DNA of 64,000 nucleotides. Source: Actinomycetota bacterium. Lineage in GTDB: Bacteria > Actinomycetota > Actinomycetes > S36-B12 > UBA5976. The translations under genes were made by a program, and so were the position numbers. The stretch lies in NCBI GenBank assembly GCA_947452765.1, contig CANGDR010000005.1, positions 1 through 64,000 of the forward strand. The letters run 5' to 3'. The notes under the pieces are model-generated. The model worked only from the letters and a program-made list of their open reading frames with translations. It searched no databases and was not told where the DNA came from. This document shows, in pieces, positions 14,720-20,653 of this stretch; within the stretch, counting starts at the first letter, position 1; each line of letters starts with the position of its first letter.

Positions 14720-15640
14720 ATGCAATTTTCGATTGAGGTCTGTTCGCATTTAACTCCCGAACAAACTGCGCGGGTGAATCAAATTACGCTCGATGCTGCC
14801 ATCGTTGATGAAATGGCACCGCTTTCCGAACACGTGCTGATTCATTTACATCATGGTGGCGATTCCCATGATGAGCACATGATTGCTATTGATCAAACTG
14901 GTGAAATCCAAGGGTACTTACACCTTGATTCAACTGATGCAGTTGAAGGTCCCGTACTTGAAGTTGTGGTTCATCCTGAGGCACGACGAAATGGAATCGG
15001 TAAAGCACTGGTGCAAGCTGCGATAGATCGAACTGGCGATTCACGCATCCGACTTTGGGCACATGGTGAGTTATCTAGTGCTTACGGTTTAGCCGATGAG
15101 CTTGGTTTTGAAAAGAACCGCGAGCTTTGGCAAATGCGCCGCTCGCTATTCGCTCCATTTCCTAAAGCACAATTCTTACCGGAAGTAATCATTCGAACTT
15201 TCGAAGTTGGAGCCGATGAAGATGCTTGGTTGGAATTAAATTCCCAGGTTTTCTCAGATCACCCAGAACAGGGCCGGATGGCTCGTGAAGATCTGGATGT
15301 ACGCATGTCCGAAGCTTGGTTTGATCCAGCAGGATTCTTAATTGCAACGCGTGACGGCAAGATGGTGGGTTACCACTGGACCAAAGTGCACGGTGGCCAA
15401 GGTTCACACGGCCATTCTGAAATTGGGGAAATTTATGTGCTTGGTGTTTCTCCGAGCGAACGTGGCACGGGACTTGCTAGGGCGCTAAGTATCCGAGGTC
15501 TGGAACATTTACGAAACCATCGTTTGCCAGCAGCGATGCTCTACGTGGACGTGGACAATAAAGCAGCAATTAGTTTGTATGAATCCCTTGGTTTTGCGCA
15601 CTGGGATACCGACGTGATGTTTAGGAAAGAGCAGGCGTAA
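14720..15640 (+). CDS. mshD: Mycothiol synthase (two GNAT domains)
   Basis: 306 aa; N-GNAT VVHPEARRNGIGKALV, C-GNAT LGVSPSERGTGLARALSIRGLEHL...LYVDVDNKAAISLYESLGF. Typical MshD architecture. Confidence 0.93.
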   Translation: MQFSIEVCSHLTPEQTARVNQITLDAAIVDEMAPLSEHVLIHLHHGGDSHDEHMIAIDQTGEIQGYLHLDSTDAVEGPVLEVVVHPEARRNGIGKALVQAAIDRTGDSRIRLWAHGELSSAYGLADELGFEKNRELWQMRRSLFAPFPKAQFLPEVIIRTFEVGADEDAWLELNSQVFSDHPEQGRMAREDLDVRMSEAWFDPAGFLIATRDGKMVGYHWTKVHGGQGSHGHSEIGEIYVLGVSPSERGTGLARALSIRGLEHLRNHRLPAAMLYVDVDNKAAISLYESLGFAHWDTDVMFRKEQA

Positions 15641-16328
15641 CTAAAGTCTGGCCGTGGCCATACTCAACGCGGTGCCCATCAACAAAAAGCCAACCTGATT
15701 GACGGCCCTGAACTTCCCATTCAAATGGGCCACCAACAATTGCGGTGTCCTCATCGATGCCGACAACACTTACCCCGTCTGGGACTTTCATGAATCGAGT
15801 CATGAAGTCCGGAACGCGCGCAAACATTTTGTCGAAGTGTGGCAGAACCCGGATGTGTGGCAGTAGGCCGAAACCGCTTGTTGCTGGGTGTGTTGGTAGC
15901 CGTAATGTCGGAATGTGATCCGCCAGTGCCATTGCCCCAGCACTACATCCCGCCAAGGCCGCACCATCTCGCCAAGCTGATTCAATTTCGCGCCATAACA
16001 AAGTGTCACGAATTGTGTTAGCCAAGAACGCCGGATTGCCTCCCGACAAATAAATTAGGCCAGCGCCTCGAACTAGTTCGGCAATTCGTGGATCTTCTGC
16101 GTCGTTGCGATCATGCGCAATAACTGAAACTGGCTCCACACCTATTCGCTCAGCTTGGGCTTTACCTAAGTTAATCCACTTTGAAAGGGAAGCTTCGCCC
16201 TCGGGTGCTGCGGCAGTTGGAATCTGCACATACTTTGGGTTTCGACCTGCGATTAATTGAGCTTCAATCTCTTGCATAATCGGCAAGTATTCACCGGAAC
16301 CAACTAATGCAATCGGACCTGGACTCAT
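15621..16328 (-). CDS. Peptidase S51 / cyanophycinase-like protein
   Basis: 235 aa; IALVGSGEY, LIYLSGGNPAFL, nucleophile elbow ALAGCSAGAMALAD, and conserved LPHFDKM. Confidence 0.82.
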   Translation of the reverse strand: MSPGPIALVGSGEYLPIMQEIEAQLIAGRNPKYVQIPTAAAPEGEASLSKWINLGKAQAERIGVEPVSVIAHDRNDAEDPRIAELVRGAGLIYLSGGNPAFLANTIRDTLLWREIESAWRDGAALAGCSAGAMALADHIPTLRLPTHPATSGFGLLPHIRVLPHFDKMFARVPDFMTRFMKVPDGVSVVGIDEDTAIVGGPFEWEVQGRQSGWLFVDGHRVEYGHGQTLVTPALS

Positions 16329-17491
16329 GAACTTTCAATATCCCAAGAGGAACCATCTTTGGTGTCCTTAATGGTTACTTTCATCTCCATTAACTGATCG
16401 CGAATTGCATCGGCATCATCCCAACGACCACCAGCGCGCGCTGCCTGTCGAGCCTGCAGTAGAGCATCGACATACGGACCTACGACGGACATGATGTCAA
16501 CCTTTGGACTTGCTGCAATATGACCTAGGCGCGTAACGAGCGAGTGTACCGCTGCGCGAGTTTCGGTATCACGATCAAGTTCATCCAGGTTTAGTAAGGC
16601 GTCAACCGCATCACTGACTTTGCCGGCATCAAGTAGTTCTTCAACTTTGTGCGGATCGACTTTAAACAGCGGGGCTGGTTCGCCCAGCACTATGGAACTT
16701 CCAGTATGCGAAATAATTTCTTCAAATGTTGCGCTCTCACCCGAAGTTACAGTCCATGACTCGCCATGATGGCGAATAGTCATTGCACCTCGACCAAAAA
16801 CGTGTGCGATGCGTTCATCTAAATCAAAACGAATTCCGGTGTGTTCATCCACACCAATAATGAAAACTTCAACTGGAAGCAATGCTTCCATGGTGCGCAA
16901 GCGAAGTTCGCCAATGTAACAAAATCGAGTGTCATGATTAGCGCCATCAGCATTGTCATAATGCGGAATTATGGTGGCGGGCATTCCAGTATGACGTTCA
17001 ATTAAATTCAAACCGGGAAGCCAGTGTGGCTCTTCTCCGACTTTATACATTTCATAAACCGGAATTGTGTGTGAGCCTGCAGTCAATGCAGCAGCTGATG
17101 CTAGAACTATCGTTCCGTCCACCAACACTTCATCGAAGTGAGGGCTTACGCCTAGTTCTTGCCAAACATTCAGCGCGTACGACGGACTTCCTGGTCCGGC
17201 AAACAGCCAGTCTGATTCGCGAATCGCATTCACGGCCTCGCCTAGTGCCGCACCACGGACGGACTTATCTCGCAGTGAAACTGCCTTCGGAGTTGCCCCC
17301 ACCGAATGGGAAAAGAAATCGATTAACTTCTCGGTTAAGTCATCGGCATTTTCCTGGAACCCAAATGGGGTGTCCAAGATGGTTAGTTTAAGTTGATCTA
17401 GCTTTCCCAGCGAGGCCAAAATCTGCTGGTGCGGCGTGACCATAGTTGGGCTGGTCTCCCCGGAGCCCATAACCACAATTTGTCTACCCAC
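16325..17491 (-). CDS. Peptidase S51-like protein fused to a CysRS C-terminal-like domain
   Basis: 388 aa; N-terminal VVMGSGETSPTM...LFAGPGSPSYAL...IVLASAAALTAGS...IIPHYDN. The C-terminus YVDALLQARQAARAGGRWDDADAIRDQLMEMKVTIKDTKDGSSWDI resembles the CysRS C-terminal tail. Confidence 0.8.
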   Translation of the reverse strand: MGRQIVVMGSGETSPTMVTPHQQILASLGKLDQLKLTILDTPFGFQENADDLTEKLIDFFSHSVGATPKAVSLRDKSVRGAALGEAVNAIRESDWLFAGPGSPSYALNVWQELGVSPHFDEVLVDGTIVLASAAALTAGSHTIPVYEMYKVGEEPHWLPGLNLIERHTGMPATIIPHYDNADGANHDTRFCYIGELRLRTMEALLPVEVFIIGVDEHTGIRFDLDERIAHVFGRGAMTIRHHGESWTVTSGESATFEEIISHTGSSIVLGEPAPLFKVDPHKVEELLDAGKVSDAVDALLNLDELDRDTETRAAVHSLVTRLGHIAASPKVDIMSVVGPYVDALLQARQAARAGGRWDDADAIRDQLMEMKVTIKDTKDGSSWDIESS

Positions 17492-17583: not shown

Positions 17584-19743
17584 ATGTCCGATACTTCCTC
17601 GCTTAATACTCAGGTTTATAGCCTACCCAGCGATCGCTTTCTCGATCGCGAGTTGTCTTGGCTTGCCTTCAATAAGCGCGTCTTGGAACTTGCCCAAGAC
17701 GAAGACATGGAATTGCTCGAACGCGTTAAGTACCTTTCAATCTTTGCCAGCAATCTTGATGAATTTTTTATGGTTAGGATTGCCGGCCTGAAGCGAAGAA
17801 TCGCTGCAGGAATAGCGAAGAAGACGCGCAGCGGTCTATTGCCACGCGAAGTTCACGATGCGGTCTTAGCTGAAAGCTATGAATTTATGAAAGAGCATGC
17901 TGCTACTTTCAATAACTCTGTTCTTCCTGCACTCGTTGCTAGCGGAATTGAAATTCTGCGTTGGGAAGAGCTAACTTCAGAAGAACGGGAAGATATGAGC
18001 AAGCTCTTCCTAGAGCAAGTTTTCCCAGTGCTAACACCTCTTGCAGTTGATCCGTCTCACCCATTCCCATACATCTCAGGTCTGTCACTAAACCTGGCGG
18101 TTCTTGTTAAGAGTCCGGAATCGGGTAGCGAACTTTTTGCCCGAGTTAAAGTCCCACCATCACTCCCGCGATTCATTCAGGTTTCAAAAGAACGTTTCGT
18201 TCCGCTTGAAGACATCATGGCGGGTCACTTGGATCTGCTTTTCCCAGGAATGGAAGTAATTCAAGTCCATACTTTCCGCGTAACTCGTAACGAAGAACTT
18301 GAAGTTGAAGAAGATGACGCAGAAAATTTGCTGCAGGCCCTTGAGCGGGAATTGATGCGTCGTCGGTTTGGTCCAGCAGTTCGCCTCGAAGTTGAAAATT
18401 CAATTGACCCACATGTGCTGGACTTGATTGTCAGCGAACTTGGAGTTCAAGACAATGAAGTATTCCGTTTAACTGGACCACTTGACCTTCAGCAACTTTA
18501 TGAATTATCGAGGTTAAATCGAGAAGATTTACTGGCTCCGGCATTTATAGCTCGTACCAGCACTGCGCTTGCTGAAGTAGAGAGCGCAACGGCTCCCGAC
18601 GTACTTGAAGTAATGCGCCATCGCGACGTTATCTTGCATCATCCGTACGATTCATTTTCCACAAGTATGCAATTGTTCTTGGAGCAGGCCGCAGTCGATC
18701 CGAATGTGCTGGCCATCAAACAGACGCTATATCGCACCTCAGGTGATTCACCGATTGTTGATGCGTTAATTGATGCAGCCCAGAACGGTAAGCAGGTTCT
18801 AGCGGTGGTTGAGATCAAGGCACGATTTGATGAACAGAACAACATCGACTGGTCTCGCAAACTTGAAGAAGCTGGTGTCCATGTGGTTTACGGAATAGTC
18901 GGCCTGAAGACGCACGCGAAACTCTGCCTTGTAGTTAGAAACGATCACGGGAAACTTAATCGCTATGTGCACATCGGCACGGGAAACTACAACCCAAAGA
19001 CTGCACGCCACTATGAGGATTATGGCCTTCTGACAACTGATCCCAAGATTGGTGAAGACGTTGCCAGCCTGTTTAACCACCTAAGTGGTTATGGGGTCCA
19101 GGGCGAATACAACCGACTTATCGTTGCACCGAAAGGTTTGCGCTCTGAGCTAGTTCATCGGATCGATCGCGAAATAGCGCACGTCCAAGCCGGTCACGAG
19201 GGCTACATTCGCTTCAAGTGCAACTCCATTGTGGATGAAACCATAATCGATGCGCTTTACCGCGCCTCAATTGCCGGCGTGAAGGTTGATATTTTGGTTC
19301 GCGGAATCTGTGCGCTGCGTCCTGGGGTACCTGGATATTCCGAAAACATCCGAGTCCGGAGCATCCTTGGCCGATTCCTGGAACATAGCCGGCTTTATGA
19401 CTTTGCAAATGCTGGGGATCGCGAAACCTGGATGGGCTCCCCTGACTTAATGCATCGCAATTTAGACCGCCGGGTCGAAGCCTTAGTTCGAATTAATCCC
19501 AAAGATGCCGAATCAATAACCCAAGTAATTGAACTTGGTATGGCCGATACAACTGCTTCTTGGCATCTAAATAGTGACGGCTCCTGGACAAGGCATCACG
19601 AAGATGCTGACGGCGAACCGCTCGTTAATTACCAAGAGTTGTTAATTAATCAGCACCCCGTTGCACGTTCGGCAGCCGATGTTCCAACTCCGCGACGAAT
19701 CGACACAATCTTAAATAAGGTAAGTCGTCGTGGTAGCCACTAA
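17584..19743 (+). CDS. ppk: Polyphosphate kinase 1
   Basis: 719 aa; [47 protein letters not shown]-type [31 protein letters not shown]. Confidence 0.97.
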
Positions 19744-20653
19744 ACATATAGTTGCCGCTGGCGCGGTAGTAACTCGCCCAGGTAGTGAGGGCACTGAGTA
19801 TTTATTAATTCATCGCGGTTACCGAAGCGACTGGACTTTTCCTAAAGGCAAACTTGATCCAGGCGAGCACGTTGTCGGTGCCGCAGTCCGCGAAGTCCGT
19901 GAAGAAACCGGTTATGCGATTAAGTTAGGAATTCCCCTTCCAACTCAGACCTACAAAGTCAATGGCAATGTTAAGGATTCTCACTACTGGCATGCTCAGC
20001 TGGTTGAAGGAGAATTTTTGCCGAACGATGAAGTAGACGAAATTAAATGGCTGTCATACGAAGATGCAAAGAAGAAACTAACTTACGAACACGACCAAGA
20101 TGTGCTCGCTGCTGCACAGCAAGCAGTCGCAACAAATCCGTTCATAATAATGCGCCATACTCAGGCAGTTAAGCGTGCCGAGTGGTCGGTTTCAGCTGAG
20201 GAACTTTCCGTCGTAGATGCCAGCCGACCGCTAACTGCTGTGGGGCGAATGCAAGCAAATGGGTTAGTAGATGCCCTAGCCGCCTATGGTGTTAGCAAAC
20301 TGCATTCATCTGACTCTCGGCGCTGCCGGGACACGGTAGGTCCGTATGCCTCAGCCCGAAGCCTGGCGATCACGCTAGAGCAAACCATGAGCGAAGAGCG
20401 CCATACCGAGGCACCAAAGCAGGCAACTTCGCGAGTTCTTGAGCTAGCGCGAAGTACTGACCCACTAGTCCTTTGCACTCATCGCCCAGTATTACCTAGC
20501 GTTATGCAGACTTTAGGTGAACTTTTCGTGCTGACAGACCCTGAAATAAAGAAGGCTTTTGATCCAGCATTGACACCTGGTTCATTTGTCGTTTACCACC
20601 GAAATGCCAATGATTTAAACGAAATTATCGCCATTGAACGGCACATGCACTAG
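19730..20653 (+). CDS. Nudix hydrolase fused to histidine phosphatase (MutT1-like)
   Basis: 307 aa; Nudix box [24 protein letters not shown]-terminal MRHTQA and [11 protein letters not shown] phosphatase motifs. Overlaps ppk by 14 nt. Confidence 0.92.

Follow-up and report, generated by a model that had tools for sequence, protein, structure and literature searches.

A conserved actinobacterial protein family joining an S51-like hydrolase domain to the C-terminal domain of cysteinyl-tRNA synthetase, with a possible link to tRNA-Cys

Introduction

What does a hydrolase domain of the peptidase S51 type do with the C-terminal domain of cysteinyl-tRNA synthetase (CysRS)? The question is raised by a gene at positions 16325–17491 of the window, as we call the whole stretch of 64,000 nucleotides analysed here. 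An earlier sequence-only reading had pointed to this open reading frame without naming its strand; the frame exists, lies on the minus strand, starts with GTG, encodes 388 amino acids and has full-length homologs. That reading had also stated that it knew of no function for such an architecture, and we likewise found no description of it in the domain libraries and open-access literature searched. What emerges is a protein family that is conserved among actinobacteria and has no assigned function.

Results

Domain layout of the fusion protein

Three parts, all encoded on the minus strand, can be distinguished: an N-terminal S51-like alpha/beta-hydrolase domain (residues 1–263, positions 16703–17491), a linker that is helical in the predicted model (residues 278–338, positions 16478–16660), and a CysS_C domain, the anticodon-binding domain of CysRS (residues 340–383, positions 16343–16474). 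The S51-type motifs listed in the sequence-only reading were all recovered, namely MGSGETSPT at residues 8–16, FAGPGSPSYAL at 97–107, ASAAALTAGS at 131–140 and PHYDN at 176–180, as was the CysRS-like tail motif at residues 343–385.

A predicted S51 fold with an altered nucleophile motif

The S51 assignment of the N-terminal domain is firm by predicted fold but weak by sequence alone. The Pfam S51 family (PF03575) matched with 16.5 bits, below its gathering cut-off of 23.9, and was detected at E 0.01 in 25 of 67 fusion homologs; the NCBIfam cyanophycinase model TIGR02069 gave 14 bits against a cut-off of 126.6. A structure predicted from the 67-sequence alignment (pLDDT 86.6) found strong Foldseek matches among S51 proteins only: 6NQC (E 1.9e-13, TM-score of 0.75 over the target, 19% identity), dipeptidase E (PepE), pseudo-CphB and cyanophycinase. 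A profile comparison also matched 6NQC, at profile positions 3–253.

The candidate nucleophile is Ser132 (codon at 17096–17098, minus strand), which aligns with the serine of the SAGA motif in 6NQC and is invariant in the 67 homologs, in keeping with the earlier observation that the serine is retained. In the predicted model it sits between strand 127–131 and helix 132–137, and this strand-turn-helix placement fits a nucleophile elbow. His177 of the PHYDN motif (codon at 16961–16963, minus strand), the candidate catalytic histidine, aligns with the PHF histidine of 6NQC and is equally invariant, and Asp215 of a conserved GVDEHT motif is, by alignment only, one candidate for the third member of a triad. 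The serine is embedded in ASAAA, which replaces the classical GCSAGA, so that a GxSAG-type motif is lacking. Given the alignment and invariance of Ser132 and His177 together with the elbow seen in the model, the domain is nevertheless likely to be catalytically active.

The altered nucleophile motif and the low Pfam score could also be read as signs of a catalytically dead domain, in a protein that only tunes the S51 peptidase encoded by the next gene downstream. We consider this very improbable, as the 67 homologs, many of which have no such S51 partner, all keep Ser132, His177 and many pocket-like residues.

A CysRS C-terminal domain with conserved tRNA-contact positions

The proposal that the tail is a genuine C-terminal domain of the CysRS type is borne out by Pfam PF23493, which matches residues 340–383 with E 5.5e-10 and 39.6 bits (cut-off 23). 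Compared with the C-termini of CysRS proteins of solved structure, the tail gave E 2.9e-4 as a single sequence and 1.7e-11 as a profile of 67 sequences, and the C-terminal profiles of the fusion and of CysRS matched each other at 99.5% probability. In all, the genome of the window encodes two CysS_C domains, of which that of the fusion scores higher than that of the genuine CysRS (42.7 versus 26.3 bits). CysRS models cover residues 338–384 of the fusion only, and the CysRS catalytic domain is absent. The preceding helices, searched alone (residues 268–338), gave a weak profile match to the CysRS helical bundle (E 0.011), which suggests that the linker may be derived from it as well.

According to PMC12684709, which cites Hauenstein 2004, G34 of tRNA-Cys is hydrogen-bonded in the E. 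coli enzyme by Arg427 and Asp436, stacked upon by Trp432 and reached by Arg423 via a water molecule. In our alignment these four residues correspond to Arg352 (Arg427), Asp361 (Asp436), Trp357 (Trp432) and Arg348 (Arg423) of the fusion. Arg348, Arg352 and Asp361 are conserved in 100% of the 67 fusion proteins, and position 357 is Trp, Phe or Tyr in 98%. Arg364, Asp376 and Trp383 are likewise 100% conserved, and the positions between them vary freely. Conservation of the contacts to G34 strengthens the link to tRNA-Cys, and binding of this tRNA is the best reading of the tail that its sequence suggests. Position 375 is Lys or Arg in the fusion and mostly Glu in CysRS (E. coli position 450). The CysRS of the window's own genome (locus L002, G000:C10) carries Lys at the position of E. 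coli Arg427, where the fusion has Arg in 67 of 67 sequences.

The main alternative is that the tail was recruited as an oligomerization or protein-docking module and has lost RNA binding. The protein would then be a common cytosolic peptidase similar to dipeptidase E or cyanophycinase, and might work in a complex with the S51 partner. This small domain can also occur on proteins other than CysRS, and a search for PF23494, a related PH-like domain, run as a control, found a B. subtilis protein. Such a match agrees with the CysS/YqeB C-terminal annotation presumably carried by the domain in other proteins; PF23494, our YqeB comparator, was found in the B. subtilis control and in no actinobacterial sequence. 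Full conservation of the nucleotide-contacting residues amid variable neighbours goes beyond the needs of a scaffold, and we regard the docking explanation as unlikely, although it deserves to be taken seriously.

Distribution and constancy of the domain pairing

Actinobacterial genomes as well as viral and plasmid collections were searched. Full-length homologs of the fusion were found across the genus, the family and the order. A scan of genomes with one representative per species yielded at least 566 relatives, and the 80 that were kept include members of the Nanopelagicales, Acidimicrobiia, Micromonosporaceae, Geodermatophilaceae and Pseudonocardiaceae. Of the 396 actinobacterial genomes in the sample, 40 (about 10%) contain the S51-like part; almost all of the remaining matches are CysRS itself. 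Matches in two records titled Bifidobacterium breve (L044, L089) resemble sequences from Nanopelagicales and Acidimicrobiia, and these organism names are probably wrong. No relative was found in viral contigs, and a viral origin of the fusion was rejected.

Among the 67 aligned homologs, identity to the protein of the window falls to about 40%. The sequence-only reading had considered that close homologs might lack the extension; the tail is present in 67 of 67, and 64 of these match CysS_C. Every intact divergent homolog that was spot-checked retains it too, including records from Streptomyces and Nonomuraea. Among the homologs examined, no intact N-terminal domain occurred without the tail; one copy was broken or truncated (G239, L148). 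The two domains are near-inseparable in Actinomycetota.

Neighbouring genes

Immediately downstream of the fusion gene lies a gene for a 235-residue S51 peptidase (positions 15621–16328, minus strand), which has the classical GCSAGA motif, scores 74.9 bits with the Pfam S51 model and is related to 6NQC with E 5e-55. Judged by its sequence, it is a bona fide member of the 6NQC family. The stop codon of the fusion and the start codon of this partner overlap by 4 nt (ATGA), as expected for translationally coupled genes, and the two genes overlap or lie within 120 nt of each other in 25 related loci. The pairing would fit a complex of hydrolases, as the docking explanation supposes, but the partner was seen only in loci of the Nanopelagicales type and the tail persists elsewhere.

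In 16 other loci, mostly from Acidimicrobiia and including one Geodermatophilaceae metagenome-assembled genome, a gene for an alpha/beta-hydrolase immediately precedes the fusion gene, typically with a 4-nt overlap (for example L083, 3372–4235). Genes for zinc-type ABC transporters are often nearby in loci of this type. No neighbour common to all lineages was found among the fusion loci compared. Neighbours pointing to translation, other than the paired hydrolases, were not seen in the compared loci, and no tRNA gene was found in the 64,000-nt window.

The overlapping coupling to a second hydrolase, of either the S51 or the alpha/beta type, together with the conserved set of tRNA-contact residues, would also suit a sensor. 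In such a protein the tail would gauge the supply of cysteine from free or charged tRNA-Cys and would turn the hydrolase domain or the paired hydrolase on or off. No regulatory domain was seen, nor was a cysteine gene conserved next to the fusion, and such a role appears improbable.

Two further candidates for the role of the fusion were rejected. For a defence system there was no PADLOC match. Nor was there support for the fusion as a substitute for YbaK, the deacylase of Cys-tRNA(Pro): YbaK-like genes are about equally frequent in genomes with and without the fusion, and the genome of the window has both. On the other side of the fusion gene, a NUDIX hydrolase fused to a histidine-phosphatase domain (positions 19730–20653, plus strand) adjoins the gene for polyphosphate kinase 1 (17584–19743).

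Relation to mycothiol synthesis

The sequence-only reading had placed the fusion next to mshD and had brought in the CysRS paralog MshC as a bridge to mycothiol. An mshD gene (positions 14720–15640, plus strand; TIGR03448, 308.6 bits) is indeed adjacent in the window, where it overlaps the 3' end of the S51 partner; it is, however, convergent rather than co-directional, is adjacent in Nanopelagicales only, and is probably not part of the fusion unit. The bridge through MshC was not supported. The MshC of the window's genome (C3:87042–88247, a 408-residue frame) lacks a CysS_C domain, so that the tail cannot stem from it and derives from CysRS proper.

A survey of co-occurrence, also suggested in that reading, revealed a strong overlap between MshC-like genes and the fusion that follows clades. 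MshC-like genes occurred in 34 of the 40 genomes with the fusion versus 86 of the 356 others (Fisher p 4e-14) and, outside the home class, that is, the class of the window's genome, in 19 of 23 fusion genera versus 29 of 203 (Fisher p about 3e-11); these statistics were tallied from two tables, treat genera as independent and are confounded by shared phylogeny. The association mostly reflects clades that have both genes, above all the Acidimicrobiia, a class name inferred for this sample from the named loci of the relatives scan. Within the home class, MshC is found in most of the genomes sampled, the fusion in the window's own genome only; conversely, five of the genomes with the fusion lack an MshC-like gene. 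Outside the home class, a second CysRS-like gene of the MshC type that falls below the TIGR03447 cut-off (330–446 bits) is common (for example in G189, G307 and G358), suggesting divergent MshC proteins.

The adjacent mshD and the co-occurrence could be taken to mean that the fusion acts in mycothiol metabolism, for instance on cysteine-containing adducts or mycothiol conjugates. Against this stand the clade-bound nature of the association, the distribution within the home class, the fusion genomes devoid of MshC, the orientation and restricted occurrence of mshD and the missing CysS_C domain of MshC. Support for a mycothiol role is weak, reaching no further than shared ancestry, and we hold such a role to be quite unlikely.

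Discussion

Our computations establish the domain composition of the fusion, the constancy of its pairing and the conservation of its candidate catalytic and G34-contact residues; from the latter we infer that the protein may bind tRNA-Cys and act as a catalyst. Our tentative proposal, the best supported of the readings weighed although we give it slightly less than even odds, is that the fusion is a serine hydrolase of the S51 superfamily carrying an anticodon-binding module derived from CysRS, by which it is directed to tRNA-Cys. Through its tail the enzyme would dock to the GCA anticodon stem-loop, and the Ser132/His177 site would then hydrolyse, or transfer from, an ester or amide group carried by tRNA-Cys or by a protein associated with this tRNA. 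Aberrant or N-blocked Cys-tRNA and peptidyl-tRNA are speculative examples of substrates, and it is equally speculative that an aminoacyl or peptidyl group is attacked at all. A more specific idea, that of an actinobacterial enzyme assembled from an S51 domain and part of CysRS for editing, rescue or aminoacyl transfer specifically on tRNA-Cys, is possible, and we advance it with greater reserve. Against the mechanism speak the change from GxSAG to ASAAA, the lack of a tRNA gene in the window and that of neighbours pointing to translation besides the paired hydrolases; moreover, the conservation of the tail residues may reflect the needs of folding alone.

Should the tail bind tRNA-Cys, the family would represent a widespread, uncharacterized tRNA-guided hydrolase, and a peptidase family would enter the quality control of translation or the metabolism of cysteine. 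Even without such binding, a conserved family has been defined for which direct predictions can be made, namely binding of tRNA-Cys and an activity that depends on Ser132.

Among known systems, the best structural match of the N-terminal domain is 6NQC, a cyanophycinase-like S51 exopeptidase from an acI-B1 actinobacterium; the serine and histidine align, whereas 6NQC has the classical SAGA motif and no CysRS tail. The predicted fold is similarly close to those of the S51 enzymes dipeptidase E and cyanophycinase (CphB), with TM-scores of about 0.68–0.77 over the target and common positions of the serine and histidine, from which the fusion differs by its altered nucleophile motif and an extra C-terminal part of 125 residues. 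With the C-terminal domain of CysRS (PF23493), the fusion has in common the sequence, the order of elements and the invariant set Arg/Arg/aromatic/Asp/Arg/Asp/Trp, but the catalytic domain present in CysRS is missing from it. The mycothiol ligase MshC, in contrast, is a CysRS relative encoded in the same genome, yet it has no region in common with the fusion.
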